NCBI RefSeq assembly: GCF_014839805.1
Contig: NC_051120.1
Location: 11,718,001 to 11,782,000 of the forward strand
Reading direction: 5' to 3'
Length of the DNA: 64,000 nt
Source of the DNA: Manduca sexta
Lineage: Eukaryota; Arthropoda; Insecta; Lepidoptera; Sphingidae
Shown here: positions 1,904-13,700 of the stretch, one piece after another
How positions within the stretch are numbered: the stretch's first letter is position 1
Layout: each line of letters begins with the position of its first letter
The notes under the pieces: model-generated
Seen by the model: only the letters and a program-made list of their open reading frames with translations
What the model was told of the DNA's origin: nothing
The model's database searches: none
Translations under genes and position numbers: made by a program

Positions 1904-4900
1904 CTGGAATGTTAAAATGTCAATTAGAATATGTTGAATATTTTTATTATGTAACCTTTGATGCTGTATGTAGTCCAGTGATGTAGTGTAATTACTTTTA
2001 TTTTTCAAGTACCTACAATAAGTCTATAAAAAACTAGATGATTTGAGGTTAATGAACGATGATGTCTTTTTTAAATGAACCTATTTTTTCTGTGTTGGGC
2101 TAATTAATATTTACCTCAAGGTATGCGTCCTGGTATGGTTTGCAAAAAAACAACAGTTTGTTATTATTAGGTTGATATCAAACAACACAAGCCAAACTCA
2201 TGCAGAAACGATGAAAAACAACGATGAAACGAATCAAGTAACTCTACTAGAAAATAAGCAACAATACTGGCTGTGTGTCAATCGATCTAACCAACGATTA
2301 CTAAAAAACAGCATAAAGCAATTTTAATATCACGTGTTAAAACAATAAAAATGTCAGAAAAACAACACCAAATAAAACGAAACTATTTTTTCTATAAAAA
2401 AACAATAAGCGGATCTAGAAAAAACAACAAAAACTCTGTTTGCGGGGCTAGTCCGGCTGACCTGCGCAGTGCATGAGCGAGTGCACGGAGTGCGGCGGCG
2501 GCGGCGGCCGCTCCAGCGCCTCGCGCTCGGCGCCCGCCCAGCGACCGCCGCCATCTTGCCGACCAACACAACCATCAAATGCCGGAATCTCATAGGTTTA
2601 CATGCTATAGACTTAGTGTTCATTTCATTTCATTCCTAACCATTTAAATTTATAAACAAATTCGTTTATGGCAAGACAAGCCTTTTTTAAATCGTCGTAG
2701 GTAATAACTATTTTATTGATAATATTATAATCATCTAAAGCTTCCTAAGTTCTCCCTTTCACTTCATTTTATTCTATACTATAATCGTAGCTATGTGGGC
2801 TGTAGAGACTATCCTTTTCACAATCAGAAGTGTTGGACCACGCTGTGATGCAGGTTGGTGTATCTAACTTTATTACCAATCATTTTGCCAGTATATTTAT
2901 ACTTATAAAGTTAGCTTCAAAACCGAAGATATTAGTAGTATCCTATACATCCATTGCCTTTCTATACGACTATTATATCATATAGATAGGTATTATTCGC
3001 ATCATAGTTATATATCAGCTACCGCTTTACTTCTATCCTCATCTATCAGTTATATTATAATCGCATGTGTCACTAATTATATCAGGTAATGTACTTACTG
3101 GTCTGCGATTCGTGGTAGAGCCCGTTGTGCATCTTGGCGGGCGAGTCGGTGGCGAGCTGCGAGGCGGTGACGGAGCGCGTCTGCAGCGTGCCCGTGCGCG
3201 CCGGCGGCGAGCCCTGCGCCGGCTGACACATTACCATTAGTAATATTATGTGAATGGGAGTCGCCATGGTTTCTATAGAATAGTCTATTGAATATGATTG
3301 GTGGACGTTGAAAGAGTCTAGAAGATAAATTTTACATAAAAAAAAAACCCCGCTTCCGGTGTAATTATTTTTACATAATATCAATTTATTTTCTTTTTTA
3401 GTCTTTCATCGAGAGCATCACTTAAAGAATTGCCTAAAGATATTTTTCATAAAAATTTCCTGTCCTCCAATTCAACCAATCATCGATTTATTGTAACATA
3501 ACAAAGCCACGATTTGCGCAAACTACTTATGTAGTGTTACCTCATCGAGCAGCCGCCGCAGTCTCTGCAGCTGAGCCTCGAGCTGCCGGTTGTGTTCCTC
3601 GAGGATCTGCATGCGCGCCTCGAGCCGGCCCTTGTGCTGCCGCAGCAGGCGCGCCTCCGCCATCATGTCCTGAGAATAATCATACAATTGCTTACACATA
3701 GTCCCGAACTCTAATGAACATAAATTAAAAGCCCTATGATTGGATTTCTCGCAACACCCAGACCAGAAGTATTTTCAGATTACAAATATTATAAGCTTTA
3801 ATTCATGACTAAAAATGCTTGTAATATACTGTTAAAACACATATCGTAAAAGCAAGTCAAGAGTCAGCAAAACAAATGGAGACGAGATCATAGGAACTTA
3901 TATAAGTTATGGAGGCAAAAGACCAAGTTTGTGATCTCATTTTATAACATAACAACTCCGTCAAACTAGTCTGTACGTGTTAAACAACTGGCTACTATTA
4001 TTTACCTGATCAGCCGGTGCGTTCCTGTTGTCAGTGAGTCCGTGCTGCTCCTCTGGAGTGGATCCTGGCGTCTGCTTGGCTTTCAGGCGCTCATACTCCG
4101 CTTGGAGACTGGCGTTCTCCTCTTCCAGTTCCCTAATCATTCAAAATACTATTAGGCTGGCGATAATTTTTAGGGTTAAATTAGGTTTAGCATTGGCCAT
4201 TTTGTGGCTAAAGATGTAATTAGATTAAGTAGATGGGTAAATATTAAAATTTCAAATATCTTAATATATATTCTCAGATTTTTGTATTAAAAAGTATTTA
4301 CTGCATAGTTCTGTCTAGTGCCGTTATCACTCCGCTATACTAGATTAAACAGTCGGTAATAATATCACCTAAGATATCCTTCATTTTTTTCAAAATTCAT
4401 CTCCAGTATTTGGCGCCAATATATCTAGAAAGGACTTCAAATTGGTCTCCAATAATTTAAGCTAGAAATAAGACATACTAAATATGTTATGAGTGATATC
4501 AGGGAACAAGGAAAGAAGGAGATGCTACCGTATCATGGCCTCGAGTTCGTGTCGCTGCTCGCGGTGTATGATGGAGACGACCTGCACGGGCGAGCGCGGC
4601 GCCTCCTCGCTGTCGGCGGCGCCGTTCAGCGACGCGCAGTACTGCGCGATCAGCTGGTGCTCCTCGTCACTGTGGAGTGAGGGCTTGTATTACAAAGGTG
4701 TAGAGTATGAAATTGGTCGCATGGGCAATTTATAATGTATTGATTTTTCTTAAATAAATTAATTAATATCTGTCAAAAACAAGACACGGTTCACAGTTTC
4801 CTAAATATTAAGTAGAGCAAACTTATATAGTCCCAGTATCTAGTTGATAAAATTTTCTTATTCAAAAATATGCTGGAACAGTGAGCCGCCCGCGCCCGCC

Positions 4901-7710
4901 GCGCCTGCGCCGTGCTGCGGGGACTAGTATGTGTGTGTGTGTACCTGTCCGGCGTGTTGTCGGCGGCGCCGAGCTCGACCTGCGCGAGGCGGGAGGCGTA
5001 GAGCTCGAGGCGCGAGTGCATGTCGTCCGAGCGCGCGCCCGCGCCGCCCGCGCCCGCCGCGCCTGCGCCGTGCTGCGGGGACTAGTATGTGTGTGTGTGT
5101 ACCTGTCCGGCGTGTTGTCGGCGGCGCCGAGCTCGACCTGCGCGAGGCGGGAGGCGTAGAGCTCGAGGCGCGAGTGCATGTCGTCCGAGCGCGCGCCCGC
5201 GCCGCCCGCGCCCGCCGCGCCTGCGCCGTGCTGCGGGGACTAGTATGTGTGTGTGTGTACCTGTCCGGCGTGTTGTCGGCGGCGCCGAGCTCGACCTGCG
5301 CGAGGCGGGAGGCGTAGAGCTCGAGGCGCGAGTGCATGTCGTCCGAGCGCGCGCCCGCCGCGCCTGCGCCGTGCTGCGGGGACTAGTATGTGTGTGTGTG
5401 TACCTGTCCGGCGTGTTGTCGGCGGCGCCGAGCTCGACCTGCGCGAGGCGGGAGGCGTAGAGCTCGAGGCGCGAGTGCATGTCGTCCGAGCGCGCGCCCG
5501 CGCCCGCGCCCGCCGCGCCTGCGCCGTGCTGCGGGGACTAGTATGTGTGTGTGTGTACCTGTCCGGCGTGTTGTCGGCGGCGCCGAGCTCGACCTGCGCG
5601 AGGCGGGAGGCGTAGAGCTCGAGGCGCGAGTGCATGTCGTCCGAGCGCGCGCCCGCGCCGCCCGCGCCCGCCGCGCCTGCGCCGTGCTGCGGGGACTAGT
5701 ATGTGTGTGTGTGTACCTGTCCGGCGTGTTGTCGGCGGCGCCGAGCTCGACCTGCGCGAGGCGGGAGGCGTAGAGCTCGAGGCGCGAGTGCATGTCGTCC
5801 GAGCGCGCGCCCGCGCCGCCCGCGCCCGCCGCGCCTGCGCCGTGCTGCGGGGACTAGTATGTGTGTGTGTGTACCTGTCCGGCGTGTTGTCGGCGGCGCC
5901 GAGCTCGACCTGCGCGAGGCGGGAGGCGTAGAGCTCGAGGCGCGAGTGCATGTCGTCCGAGCGCGCGCCCGCGCCGCCCGCGCCCGCCGCGCCTGCGCCG
6001 TGCTGCGGGGACTAGTATGTGTGTGTGTGTACCTGTCCGGCGTGTTGTCGGCGGCGCCGAGCTCGACCTGCGCGAGGCGGGAGGCGTAGAGCTCGAGGCG
6101 CGAGTGCATGTCGTCCGAGCGCGCGCCCGCGCCGCCCGCGCCCGCCGCGCCTGCGCCGTGCTGCGGGGACTAGTATGTGTGTGTGTGTACCTGTCCGGCG
6201 TGTTGTCGGCGGCGCCGAGCTCGACCTGCGCGAGGCGGGAGGCGTAGAGCTCGAGGCGCGAGTGCATGTCGTCCGAGCGCGCGCCCGCGCCGCCCGCGCC
6301 CGCCGCGCCTGCGCCGTGCTGCGGGGACTAGTATGTGTGTGTGTGTACCTGTCCGGCGTGTTGTCGGCGGCGCCGAGCTCGACCTGCGCGAGGCGGGAGG
6401 CGTAGAGCTCGAGGCGCGAGTGCATGTCGTCCGAGCGCGCGCCCGCCGCGCCTGCGCCGTGCTGCGGGGACTAGTATGTGTGTGTGTGTACCTGTCCGGC
6501 GTGTTGTCGGCGGCGCCGAGCTCGACCTGCGCGAGGCGGGAGGCGTAGAGCTCGAGGCGCGAGTGCATGTCGTCCGAGCGCGCGCCCGCGCCGCCCGCGC
6601 CCGCCGCGCCTGCGCCGTGCTGCGGGGACTAGTATGTGTGTGTGTGTACCTGTCCGGCGTGTTGTCGGCGGCGCCGAGCTCGACCTGCGCGAGGCGGGAG
6701 GCGTAGAGCTCGAGGCGCGAGTGCATGTCGTCCGAGCGCGCGCCCGCGCCGCCCGCGCCCGCCGCGCCTGCGCCGTGCTGCGGGGACTAGTATGTGTGTG
6801 TGTGTACCTGTCCGGCGTGTTGTCGGCGGCGCCGAGCTCGACCTGCGCGAGGCGGGAGGCGTAGAGCTCGAGGCGCGAGTGCATGTCGTCCGAGCGCGCG
6901 CCCGCGCCGCCCGCGCCCGCCGCGCCTGCGCCGTGCTGCGGGGACGGGGCGGGGGACTCCAGCGCGTCTCCTGAGGGGGGGGGGGTAAGTACCACATTTT
7001 ATTTCAGACTAGCTTCCGCTCGCAGCTTCGCCCGCGTGGATTTCGGACTTCAAAAATGGAGCCGGTCGCGAACGTTCGAGAATGTTCGTTTTACGAAGCT
7101 ACTCGCTAGGTGATTCGCTAGCCTCTAGGTGCCAAGCAAGCCGCCTGCCTGTGCGTTCGCGACCTTATATATATACAAAAATAATCCTTATAGCATGATT
7201 CAGTATTCACGCATGATGGCTTATTATTAGCGTATTTCATGTATAATTTTGGTGTTTCTATACCGATTTCTACGATTCTTTTTTATGGAATATTTAATAA
7301 TGTTAACTTTTTTAATTAGGGATGACTAAGAGTGTTATAAACGTAAGAGTAGACAAATATAATGAGAAAGCTTCGAATTGCTAAGCTATCGGGAGTTGTA
7401 CACGTGTTATTGTGAGTCAACCATAAAAGATAGACATATGCTGTCGTGGGATATTTTTTACATAATTTTAAGGAGAACATTTCCGTCATACATGATTTCT
7501 GTGTAGCTTTAACCATTAAGCTTGCACACGCGACGGAAGCTTAAAAATGGAGTAACTTCTCCCGTTTTCCCAACATTTCCCTTCACTGCTCTGCTCCTAT
7601 TAATTGTAGCGTGATGAAAAGTATACTATAACCAGCACAGGAGTATGACAAATAATTGTACCAAGTTTCGTTAAAATCCGTCGAGTAGTTTTTGTTTCTA
7701 TAACGGTTAT

Positions 7711-7751
<41 letters not shown>

Positions 7752-10700
7752 AATTTTACTAATTGCATTTTTGGCATCAGTATCGATCCCTAATCACCCC
7801 CTGATAGTTATTTTGGAAATATATTTCATGTACAGAATTGACCTCTCTACAGATTTATTATAAGTATAGATTAAAGAGAAGATTCTATCGTGTCATGTTG
7901 AGAAATTCGGGAATCAAAAAAAAACCCCAGTCATTCATTTTTCAATTCCCATTCTTTTCCTATCACACCAGCAGTAGGTATATCCCTAAAGCGAAAACTA
8001 AACGAAAACATAGTATTGGACCACATGAAAATTTAAAAGTATGCACATCGCGTACAGGATAAAACTAAAAGATAAACACGATTTTGAAAGGTATATGTAG
8101 CTACATAACATCATAAAATTTCTTAAACAGAATATCACACTTACCTTCTAGAACAGTCTGTACGGGCAGATATCCCACTCGTGGATGTTTCTTGAAGTAC
8201 CTCGCCGACTTGAACTTGTTGCGCAAGGCTCGCGTGAAGTCGCGCACGTCCTCACCAGACGTTGTCTATAAATATAATACAATTCATTTCTGTATATTCA
8301 CATGAATAAAAAAATATCAACATGGGCTAGGAAAGTTTCTCTACAAACTTCGTTTTGATGAATAGGGAAGTGTGCTCGCTTTTTAATATTTTTCCTGTTT
8401 GGCAAATTGACTCCAATAAGGCGTAGTGCTGCTCAAGTATTTTCGATTAATAAAAGTCCTTGATGTTACGGTGGTGAGATTACCAGGTATTATGACGTTA
8501 TACTCACAGCTGTGCAGTACTCCTGCATGGGATGCGTGAGCTTGTGGTTCTTCGCCTTGCGTCCGTTGAAGAAGCACTTCTGGCACATGTCGAAGTTGAA
8601 GCACTTGAGGCATCGGTATCTGGAATGATGATACTAGTTGTTAATTCACAATTATTAAAATACTGAAAGGTGTAGAGTATAGATTGTTACCCACCATATG
8701 TAAACAACATATATTTTAATTTTTTACTATCGCCATTATCAATATCACCATCAGTCCTAACAAAAGTATTTTTATACTCCAGATATTTTCTTTTATTTTG
8801 TTAATAGTGGTAGTTAATCTAATACGGAAAATACATAGATAGCAGCTACTGAAAGAGGTCAAAAATTTTTTCGGTCCATCAGTTTCTGTTTAAATTATGT
8901 TGGGAAATAAATTTTCAATAGCTGCTTTGGTTATTGGGAATCCTATATAATTAGTTACCTGAAGCCGACGATGGGATACTCCTTGCAGATATTACACTTG
9001 GCTTGATGCCTGGCGCTTTCAGCAGCAGCGAGGCGGTGCAGCACCGGCAGCCACACCATGGACTGCGGCTCCTTCTGCAGCCACTGCAAGAAGTGGAACG
9101 CTTCGATGTGCTGCAGCTGTCCATCCGCGTCGCGTTCCAGGGTCTTCTCTTTTGATTCTTCTTTCTCTTTCTCTTTTTCTGCTGTTTTGATAAATTAAAA
9201 AAAAATGTTAAAACTAAATATGTTTATGACATTGCCATTAGTATTAGGTCTCCTTATTCTAAGGTTAAATTAACTTTCTAGAGTTGTCTTCAATAGTTGG
9301 TAGATGACAACACAGAATTTGGTGGCTCTCGACCTATTCAACACAGCTTTTGCTCAATATTTACTATTAGCATAAAATATTTTAGTGAGGGTATCTGTAA
9401 CATTTTTTGCTATAAAAACACTGAACGGTTGGTAGACCGAGTTAGTTGGTTGTTGACAGGCGTACCGGTCGGTTGCTTGGTGGAATATTTGTGAAAGTAT
9501 TTCTGAGGTCAGTGATATTTCTTTTAATTTTAATTAAAATCGAATCAGTTCTCTTACACATCATATTTTCAAAGGGCATATCGTTGACTGATAAGACCGA
9601 TAATTCTAATTTAACCTCCCAGGCTGTTTTAAGGATAGTCCTGGAAATTGCATTTTCCCTGCATCATTATCAGTTAAATTATCTCACCAGGCTTTCTATC
9701 CAGCGTGGCGGTCCGTGGTGGCTCTCTGGCGGCCGACGCCTGCTCGAAGCAGCTGCGGACGGAGGGCTCGATGTTGGAGCCTCCGAACGCCGCCACCTCT
9801 CCTAGCTGTCGTGGCACCTGGACAGGAAAACAGATTATAAGATTTCGGTTCGCAAAGAACTTCAAACCTTTTTTAAAACCTACATTAAATTGATCTCCAT
9901 TTCAGAACTAGAAAAGAATTTTTCTACTAAACAGACGAAGAATAGAAAATCGGACTGCAGACTAACTTGTATTATCTTACCTGTATACAATCGTGCAAGA
10001 GCAGGCCAAGTTTCCTTTGGTCCGCTCGACACGACGGGTCTGCTATCAGTCGGAATAGATATCTGGAAATAATTATTGGTCATTTAAAATCTTCATATGC
10101 CATCTAGAATTACTACATTATTTTATATGTAAGTCAGTTTTCAAATGTTATGAGTTTGGATGTAGAAGGGTATTTCTAAAACTATTGATCTAATATAATA
10201 ATGTCTTTGTACTGTATCCAACGTGCTGTCTTAGGATAGGACTCATATCCTAGTACTATTCCTATCATAGGAGTTATATGCGGACTGAGACGCGAACTAA
10301 TAAGATGTATCTAAATGAGAGAATCTATCTATATATCTGACAGATTTGTTGAGACACGCTACTAAGAAGACCTCAACGACTTTCTTCTTCACTAGTACTA
10401 AACAACTTATGAGAGATAATAATTCACCTATACTTCTCCTCGAGATGTCCCTTGCAGAGCAGCACCAGGCCAACTTTGAAGCTGAGCACGCGGATCTGGC
10501 CGGTGCGCTGGCTGTCGTACACATTCAGTAGCCAGTTGATGGACAGGTCCAGGCAGAGTGGTACGTTCACTAGGCTTGGATTTTCTGCCGCTATCACCTG
10601 GTGGAAGAAAAAAAGTACTATAGAAATCTGGAAATTTCTGTAGGTAGGTTAAGACTAACGAAATGAAATAAAGAAATTACATTTTTTAACACTAATAACC

Positions 10701-13700
10701 TTCAACAACCTCCTTGTAAAATGCAGTTTTCATAAGCCAAAATTTAAATATTTATCTATCAACAGTTGAAGAGACAAGAATAAATCTTGACGTTATTTAG
10801 AAACTTTTGCAAAGCTTACTCTTATTAACACAATCTAATTAAGTCATGTTATCAAGTATATACCTTCTATCCTTCCTAGAATAATAACCCTATAAAGCCG
10901 TTACTAACCTCGTATAAAGAAGTGAGCACGGTGATCATATCGGGGATGTCGATGAGGCGGTCGTTCTGCGCGCGCAGGCCGTGCGAGTCGAACGCCTCCA
11001 GCGCCGCCGGCAGCTGCAGCATGTGCACTGGAACGAGGGAGAAGGATTGAGAATAGAGTTTGGAATTGGTGAATTCGATGTGGTGTTGAGGATGTCGGGA
11101 AAGGTATGCTGTAGTTTAAAATTTTCTTGTTTTTACAATTGAGCAATCAAACGAGCAAATTGTTGCTCTCTCTGGCTACAAATTACAATGTTCTGGTGCT
11201 GAGGAATTTTTGTGACAACACTTTAATCACAGTTTTTTATTCACGTTTGGAATATGAACTATTTTGCCTATCATTTGTTAAATTGGTTTAGCCTTCTATA
11301 TAAGTCAGTTGTTTTGTTTTACAATCATTTTTAGTATTAGGTACACGAAATATAATTGTATTAATGAACATTGTTTGTTTGACAATTTACCATAATACAA
11401 AAAATTCACCAATATCGATACAAAATACAAATAGACTTACTGCATAACGCCTTCTGCACAGTTCTTAGTTTGAGCGCGGTGCGGTACGCGGAGAAGCGCA
11501 CCTCGTTGAGGTCTGCCAGCGAGTTCATTAGCTCAATCATCTTCGGGTGGTCCCAGTGCGTCGTCTCCAACTCATGACTAGTAGAATATTATGATTTCTT
11601 ATGTTTACGCGAATGTTAGACATTGAAATAAAAACTAAAAACTATTTAAACGGATTTTATCGCGGTTTTTTTTTTTTTTTATATTATTATTTTCTCCCGA
11701 CGTTTCGAAGACTTTGCAGCCTTCATGGTCACGGGGGACTGAGGTGTTGTTCATCCGTAAAGTCAAAGTTACAATATCTACCTACATTTTTCAAATATAC
11801 AACTTTTTAAAAATTTTTATCTGTTGACGGTCCGATCTACGCAGAATGAGCTCACAGTGTCTTGAGGTCTGGCAGCCGGTCTTTTGGGATCCGATTTAAT
11901 TAAATGTAGAACAGGATCCCAGGCTTGTGCAAGCTTCCAACCATCTTCCCTATTGAAATTTGGGTGTTTTTCATTTCAATAGCCTCGCGAATCATCCTAG
12001 GCAGGAATCGGTGTTCTTTGGCAAGGATTTGTGGCTTGTCTAATCGCAAATAATGATTGGAGCCTCCTTCAGAATGTTCAGCGACTGCAGACTTCGTAGA
12101 GCGTCGGTGTTTCACGTCAGCTATATGTTCTTTTACGCGGGTCCCTATATTTCTTTTTGTTTGTCCTATATAAGAGAGGCCACAGTTGCAGTCTATCTTG
12201 TATACACCCGGTTCTTGTAGAGGTATATGGCACTTGACAGGTGGTAAAAATTGACTAATCTACGGTACGTAGATGATACTTTCACAATTTTACCATCGGA
12301 CAAAGTATCTGCATTTTTAAATCACCTTAACTCCATCAATAATAAAATCCAATTCACTATGGAGTTAGAACACAACAAATCTCTTGCTTTCTTGGATGTT
12401 TTAGTCATTCGTAATCCTGATCAGACCTTAAGTCATACTGTGTATCGGAAACAGACCCATACTGATAAATATCTGAACGGTGAATCTCACCACCATCCAA
12501 AACAGTTAGCTACCGTGGGCAAATCATTGTTTCAGAGAGCACGAGGAATCTGTGACGAGAAACACCTGGCCGCTGAGCTACAACATGTCAAGCAAGTACT
12601 GCGAGACAACAAGCTCCAAATTCCACGCCGCCGTCACAGAGACCGAGTGAAACCAGCCACAGTTGAACGTGTTCCGGTTGTACTACCATATGTGAGAGGA
12701 GTCACCGACAAGATTGGCTACATCCTGAAGCGTGCTTCAATAAAAACCTATTTCAAGCCGCCTAAGAAGATTAGTCAATTTTTACCACCTGTCAAGTGCC
12801 ATATACCTCTGCAAGAACCGGGTGTATACAAGATAGACTGCAACTGTGGCCTCTCTTATATAGGACAAACAAAAAAGAAATATAGGGACCCGCGTAAAAG
12901 AACATATAGCTGACGTGAAACACCGACGCTCTACGAAGTCTGCAGTCGCTGAACATTCTGAAGGAGGCTCCAATCATTATTTGCGATTAGACAAGCCACA
13001 AATCCTTGCCAAAGAACACCGATTCCTGCCTAGGATGATTCGCGAGGCTATTGAAATTAAAAACACCCAAATTTCAATAGGGAAGATGGTTGGAAGCTTG
13101 CACAAGCCTGGGATCCTGTTCTACATTTAATTAAATCGGATCCCAAAAGACCGGCTGCCAGACCTCAAGACACTGTGAGCTCATTCTGCGTAGATCGGAC
13201 CGTCAACAGATAAAAAATTTTAAAAAGTTGTATATTTGAAAAATGTAGGTAGATATTGTAACTTTGACTTTACGGATGAACAACACCTCAGTCCCCCCCG
13301 TGACCATGAAGGCTGCAAAGTCTTCGAAACGTCGGGAGAAAATAATAATATAAAAAACCGCGATAAAATCCGTTTAAATAGTTTTTAGTTTTTATTTCAA
13401 TAGTAGAATATTTTTATATATTAATGTAGGAATAACGTACAATTTAGGTTAAATATAATATTGCAGACTAAACGCTTAGCACCAAGCAATAAGTGTTCAA
13501 AGAGCAGGCATTTCGGGCGCTTCATTGTTATATTATTCCTCGTCTGTTACAATATTGGTGTCATCTATCATTTTATCATATTAATAGTGTAAATGAAGAT
13601 CAAGTCCTTTATAATTAATACTTATTTATGTTATTCTTACAATAGTTTTTTTTTACAAATGGATTGGCTGAGCACGTGTAATTGAAGTAGCAAACAACGG

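Follow-up and report, generated by a model that had tools for sequence, protein, structure and literature searches.

The window analysed here, a stretch of 64,000 nucleotides (nt) from Manduca sexta, carries on its minus strand a gene, identified below as dystrophin, in which one coding exon is followed directly by a tandem array of its own 3′ part together with its splice donor. Ten exons, running from 9817 to 1794, join into one frame of 457 amino acids (aa). The product contains EF-hand_3 and ZZ domains, shows 84% identity to the protein of Spodoptera, 88% to that of Pararge and 86% to those of Leptidea and Ostrinia (coverage 99–100%), and can be aligned to a PDB chain bearing the name dystrophin (9c3c_D) over the syntrophin-binding segment and on through the exon behind it. 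By these sequence comparisons the gene is dystrophin, and the frame, the identities to four lepidopteran proteins and the 9c3c_D alignment support the preliminary description of this DNA, in which the locus was treated as a dystrophin gene. Between 10428 and 9817 a further exon would be expected, but none could be placed there. The syntrophin-binding segment is encoded by an exon of 163 nt (6808..6970, minus strand; hereafter the founder exon), presumably the counterpart of vertebrate exon 74 judging from the 9c3c_D alignment and from the exon numbering of vertebrate dystrophin. It is preceded by an exon at 8145..8265 and followed by one at 4529..4669, both on the minus strand, the latter in frame with the founder donor. 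In the 470-Mb assembly (4056 contigs) no second dystrophin locus was found besides contig C2797, which holds the same array between matching flanks; a second dystrophin gene was therefore rejected, in agreement with the single-copy status assumed earlier. The other EF-hand_3 matches in the assembly, two in number and both on contig C4, may represent dystrobrevin.

The array occupies 4885..6945 on the minus strand, where Tandem Repeats Finder, run on the window, reported a period of 158, 13.3 copies, 96% matches and a score of 3891. A full unit of 158 bp consists of the final 138 nt of the founder exon and 20 nt of intron. On the minus strand, 14 unit starts and 13 exact donor motifs were counted: with the founder's own copy included there are 13 units, that is, 12 copies behind the founder exon, and then a 38-nt stump at the far end (4885..4922). 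The donor GT of the founder exon lies at 6807-6806, and the exon-like parts in front of the 12 further donors (4945..6650, minus strand) end at 6650, 6492, 6349, 6191, 6033, 5875, 5717, 5559, 5404, 5261, 5103 and 4945. Both the 13-fold head-to-tail arrangement and the presence of 13 identical donors behind one native acceptor, as described previously, are thus borne out by the repeat analysis and the exact motif count. The near-identity of the units was likewise confirmed, since 10 of the 13, among them the founder's copy, are identical 158-mers, while the remaining three comprise two 143-mers of the same sequence (6327..6469 and 5239..5381, minus strand) and one 155-mer (5382..5536, minus strand). 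Each variant unit carries a single deletion (15, 15 and 3 nt), always within the GC-rich stretch coding for glycine and alanine, and no substitution.

The unit boundaries differ slightly from those first proposed. Upstream of the donor, the identity of founder and first repeat extends over 138 nt; the unit therefore lacks the first 25 nt of the exon instead of 35, and the intron piece, correctly recognised as part of the unit, measures 20 nt instead of about 21. The distance of 35 nt is the one to an acceptor-like CCCCGCAG inside the founder exon (6936..6943, minus strand), which is present in every unit. Consequently, the earlier statement that the founder exon keeps the only genuine acceptor holds in that 6970 alone has its native context, but not in the sense that the copies are free of acceptor-like sequence. 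The GC content of the array is 74.7%, compared to 37.1% for the window. The glycine/alanine stretch of the founder exon comprises 14 residues, as compared to 6 to 10 in the 8 other lepidopteran proteins compared, and both kinds of deletion found in the array fall inside this stretch. In the intron preceding the founder exon there is an ACAG microsatellite of 9.8 copies (7711-7749). When the whole assembly was searched with the unit, matches were confined to this locus on contig C6 and to C2797, which led us to reject a dispersed element, and an RNA gene was rejected because the window contained no Rfam match at gathering scores.

Contig C2797 (13,342 bp) is collinear with positions 13062-1 of the window, extends beyond the window end and holds the array between the same unique flanks with 9 donors. 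Its units measure, in order, 158, 158, 156, 143, 158, 159, 155, 156 and 153 bp; the 143-mer is the fourth unit in both arrays, and the order of units diverges past unit 6. The flanks of the two contigs differ at 40 indel places and in 33 mismatched columns over about 11 kb, mostly by single-base and homopolymer indels, and many of the mismatches adjoin indels. C2797 may be a thinly covered haplotig. Because arrays with 13 and 9 donors sit in the same flanks, the comparison of the two contigs supports a real array of variable length and with it the earlier suggestion of a variable number tandem repeat (VNTR); the exact unit numbers depend on the assembly. Alternatively, errors in the library or the assembly, arising in a GC-rich stretch, might have produced the array or its length. 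The discrepancy between 13 and 9 copies and the type of flank differences would fit such an artefact, whereas the recurrence of the array in the same unique flanks, with both 143- and 155-bp units on either contig and the 143-mer fourth in each, argues against it. We regard this explanation as improbable.

When all 13 donors were translated, the founder donor (6808) alone yielded an in-frame product with the canonical protein end. Each of the other 12 donors leads to an early stop at least 501 nt before the last exon junction, and so do retention of the whole intron and skipping of the 163-nt exon, which shifts the frame. In-frame exon skipping was thus rejected by exon length: although omission of exon 74 is described for vertebrate dystrophin in the portion of that literature considered, the proposed tuning by skipping is not supported for a gene in which the skip shifts the frame. 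A coding repeat was rejected as well, since the frame read past the founder donor reaches a stop at 6471-6473 and one of 13 donors is productive. It follows that the locus works only if the first donor is chosen, or if waste is tolerated. Waste is given a function in the idea of a splicing rheostat, according to which the founder donor faces competition from the 12 extra donors and copy number sets the level of productive mRNA containing this exon, mis-spliced mRNA carrying an early stop and being degraded. The identity of all 13 donors and the early stops reached from 12 of them are in line with this idea; the fact that exon skipping does not preserve the frame here speaks against it, and in our view a rheostat is rather unlikely.

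Use of the units as cassette exons through the acceptor-like AG was also considered, three units together keeping the frame and adding peptide repeats. Inclusion of the first three units indeed restores the frame and the canonical end, giving 580 aa, and the 12 acceptors of the gene that were compared have a pyrimidine content of 0.47-0.88, which includes the value of CCCCGCAG (0.59). Contrarily, translation stops early when a single unit is included, at whichever of the 12 positions tested, and likewise with the first two units together, and no branch-site-like motif was present in the 60 nt preceding the AG. Moreover, the GT-AG distance within one unit is 30 nt, which is shorter than known animal introns, and among the 120 homologues listed (594 found) the motif occurred once in 87 and duplicated in none. 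Cassette use is hence highly improbable.

Arrays of the same build were found at other places in the genome. The background sample comprised 19 ten-kb stretches at round coordinates, except for L024 and L034, which had been chosen for other reasons, and one of the 19, L033, holds a second array of exon tail, donor and intron piece (L033:6386-10000 and L035; G000:C6:11006386 to about 11010640). It consists mostly of 102-bp units, contains 39 exact donor motifs and follows an exon of 179 nt in a putatively NOC3-like gene whose product has a CBF/Mak21 domain. The first units form an open repeat of 34 residues; similarity among the units of this array is high close to the founder and lower far out, where a run of 500 N follows. 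That this array ends at such a run may be counted in favour of an assembly artefact, while the divergence of its units at the far end is as expected of an old, real array. The other sampled arrays with a period of at least 80 and at least 5 copies were three members of a 123-bp family with 42-45% GC and stops in all frames shown, located in three distant stretches (L018:5520-6259, L031:502-2222 and L033:294-910). A 51-bp array in L032 with CACCTGATG|GTAAGTGA is similar to a common lepidopteran repeat and was for that reason not counted as exonic.

A search for three GCAGGTR words at a spacing of 91-121 gave 222 + 98 matches, whereas the word in reverse gave 26 + 2. The first matches listed fell in three places, on contigs C2, C4 and C3. 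The first is an array of a C2H2 zinc-finger exon tail with donor GTGAGT, 16 donors and units of 97-98 bp (L039; G000:C2, near 7982481-7984000), whose last copy leads, past GTGAGT, into different intron sequence. The second extends over L043 and L044 (G000:C4:861364 to beyond 869700). Its units, about 90 and 96 bp long, end in a donor, and beyond the array TTTCTTTACAG precedes a coding-like exon; units were read at the array end and once more some 7 kb upstream. These C4 units are possibly coding, as suggested by an open frame and a downstream acceptor, with no Pfam match. At both loci the search word lies on the opposite strand, away from the donor. The C3 place gave a single match row and was not exon-like by eye. 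The intron piece per unit measures 20 nt for dystrophin, 19 nt for the NOC3-like gene, 17 nt for the zinc-finger gene and no less than 18 nt for the gene on C4; in the zinc-finger unit only 6 nt of this piece match the intron behind the last copy, and the rest may be filler. An exon tail joined to a short intron piece was thus present in 4 of 4 loci read, a pattern noticed post hoc in a set whose dystrophin member had been selected for its donor. The rarity claimed for the dystrophin array has to be qualified, given three more such arrays in this genome and the donor VNTRs known in humans. The presence of the same build in unrelated genes also speaks against dystrophin-specific control by a rheostat.

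Independently of these loci, GC-rich arrays with coding-like sequence and spacings of 148 bp and about 145 bp were seen at G000:C1:4536032-4540033 and G000:C1:4561528-4563245, and a long array with 42-bp steps at G000:C1:2859336-2865305 resembles an ordinary coding repeat of 14 residues. In the window itself, a 220-aa open reading frame on the plus strand (12251-12913) resembles, by its appearance, the terminal part of a Penelope-like element carrying a GIY-YIG motif.

Tandem triples of CAGGTRAG, a consensus donor word, at spacings of 92-122, 123-153 and 154-184 gave 21, 8 and 9 matches, and the reversed word gave 43, 13 and 12; these counts are of matches and not of loci, so that long arrays weigh heavily. 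The places concerned, known as positions only, are G000:C15:13200488-13203202, C597:15633-16574, C16:130153-131151 and C7:6673658-6674618, besides a single row on C27; those on C15 and C597, which have a similar spacing, might be two versions of one locus. For a GC word with no relation to donors, used as a control, there were 1149 + 1185 matches, and for its reverse 952 + 926. This genome is accordingly rich in tandem arrays, and a genome-wide preference for donors was not shown against the control words. The build would be explained by a selection filter without a donor-directed process: arrays running from exon into intron would be tolerated because the first donor stays intact, whereas arrays spanning an acceptor or lying wholly within an exon would mostly not be spliced out cleanly. 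Alternatively, amplification might be anchored on 5′ splice sites: in unrelated genes the copied exon tail would include an almost invariant 17-20 nt of intron because an obstacle at the donor, such as bound splicing machinery or a polymerase stalled with an R-loop, determines where the breaks occur. The donor minisatellites left behind could then alter splicing through their length. We put this forward as a doubtful possibility.

Taken together, the dystrophin array is probably a real and recently expanded minisatellite of variable copy number that lies in the intron behind the founder exon and is removed by splicing from the first donor, the exon being recognised from 6970 to 6808. This is favoured by units identical save for deletions in a GC-rich stretch, by in-frame coding in separate exons on both sides with only donor 1 of 13 leading to the canonical product, by a founder donor of middling strength (U1 duplex -7.1, with 5 of 11 other scored donors of the gene weaker and 6 stronger), by the 9-donor array in matching flanks on C2797, and by the three further loci of like build. 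Three observations weigh on the other side: C2797 could be a thinly covered or faulty contig; the last donor lies 275 nt from the next acceptor as compared to 2138 nt for the founder donor, which could favour wrong donors; and the pyrimidine content of the unit's acceptor-like site is not low enough to dismiss it. Distance to the acceptor does not favour the founder donor, but exon definition and order of transcription would. We propose that the array was seeded when the GC-rich end of the exon was duplicated in tandem along with the donor and 20 nt of intron, and that units were subsequently gained and lost. The array would behave as intron, the exon spanning its own acceptor and first donor and the 12 other donors being removed with the intron; such arrays would be tolerated because the first donor and its context remain intact, and copy number would be nearly neutral. 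As other genes of the genome contain arrays of like build, it is probable that GC-rich exon ends are unstable in general and that no function peculiar to dystrophin is the cause. The likely state is thus a tolerated intronic minisatellite of variable length, and with it the genome holds at least four arrays built in this way; the splicing rheostat is the main rival explanation.

The locus thus combines, in a conserved gene, 13 identical donors with one native acceptor, and of these donors only the first is productive. Two copy numbers on the same flanks, together with arrays of the same build elsewhere, offer a natural test of the choice among identical 5′ splice sites, for which order of transcription, exon definition and distance to the acceptor are candidate rules. 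Furthermore, a true clustering of breakpoints at 17-20 nt behind donors would suggest that the underlying mutational process is linked to splicing or transcription.

Among the literature matches listed, nothing on point was found on lepidopteran, GC-rich or exon-junction minisatellites. In tandemly duplicated alternative exons, as in the dystrophin array, a gene contains one exon several times over. The dystrophin copies differ from these in that they lack the initial 25 nt of the exon and all sequence upstream of it, including the native acceptor, only the exonic AG is left, and inclusion or replacement of a single copy fails to keep the frame at 12 of 12 positions. Closer in anatomy is the minisatellite of human IFI6 (6-16), whose unit is reportedly 12 bp long. 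Its downstream units serve as splice donors (Turri 1995, cited in PMC4526556), a use that is documented, and it shares with the dystrophin array that repeat units supply alternative donors. The IFI6 unit is short, whereas the dystrophin array has a long exon-derived unit and is known from its sequence. In human ABCA7, a VNTR in intron 18 with a 25-bp unit begins at the exon 18 donor GT and comprises about 12 to 427 units; in the sections of the report considered, an isoform retaining one unit is described, and VNTR length goes with exon 19 skipping and lower expression (PMC5954066). This link between a VNTR beginning with an exon donor and altered splicing would be in favour of a rheostat at dystrophin, but according to the same sections the retention of one unit stayed the same whatever the VNTR length, and it was exon 19 skipping that varied with it (PMC5954066). 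The two arrays are alike in that the repeat directly behind the exon starts at the donor GT, donors are repeated and use of a downstream repeat donor shifts the frame, or at dystrophin would do so, and copy number varies in ABCA7 and may vary between alleles at dystrophin, where two contigs with the same flanks have 13 and 9 donors; they differ in that the ABCA7 unit of 25 bp is nearly without exon and has a measured splicing effect, as compared to 158 bp of mostly coding exon in dystrophin (PMC5954066). Intron gain by tandem genomic duplication likewise involves an exon segment duplicated in tandem with splice-site-like sequence, as far as the portions of the two reports considered show (PMC4974935; PMC3443670). 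In contrast to that process, the dystrophin array enlarges an existing intron, over which the founder exon and the next exon join in frame, and no new intron splits a formerly continuous exon (PMC4974935; PMC3443670). With its donor-bearing units of 158, 155 and 143 bp placed in tandem right at the 3′ end of an exon, the array thus resembles the ABCA7 and IFI6 donor VNTRs in anatomy; donor VNTRs themselves are already known in humans, and what is new here is the unit made mostly of coding exon, the gene in which it lies and the recurrence of arrays of this build within one genome.

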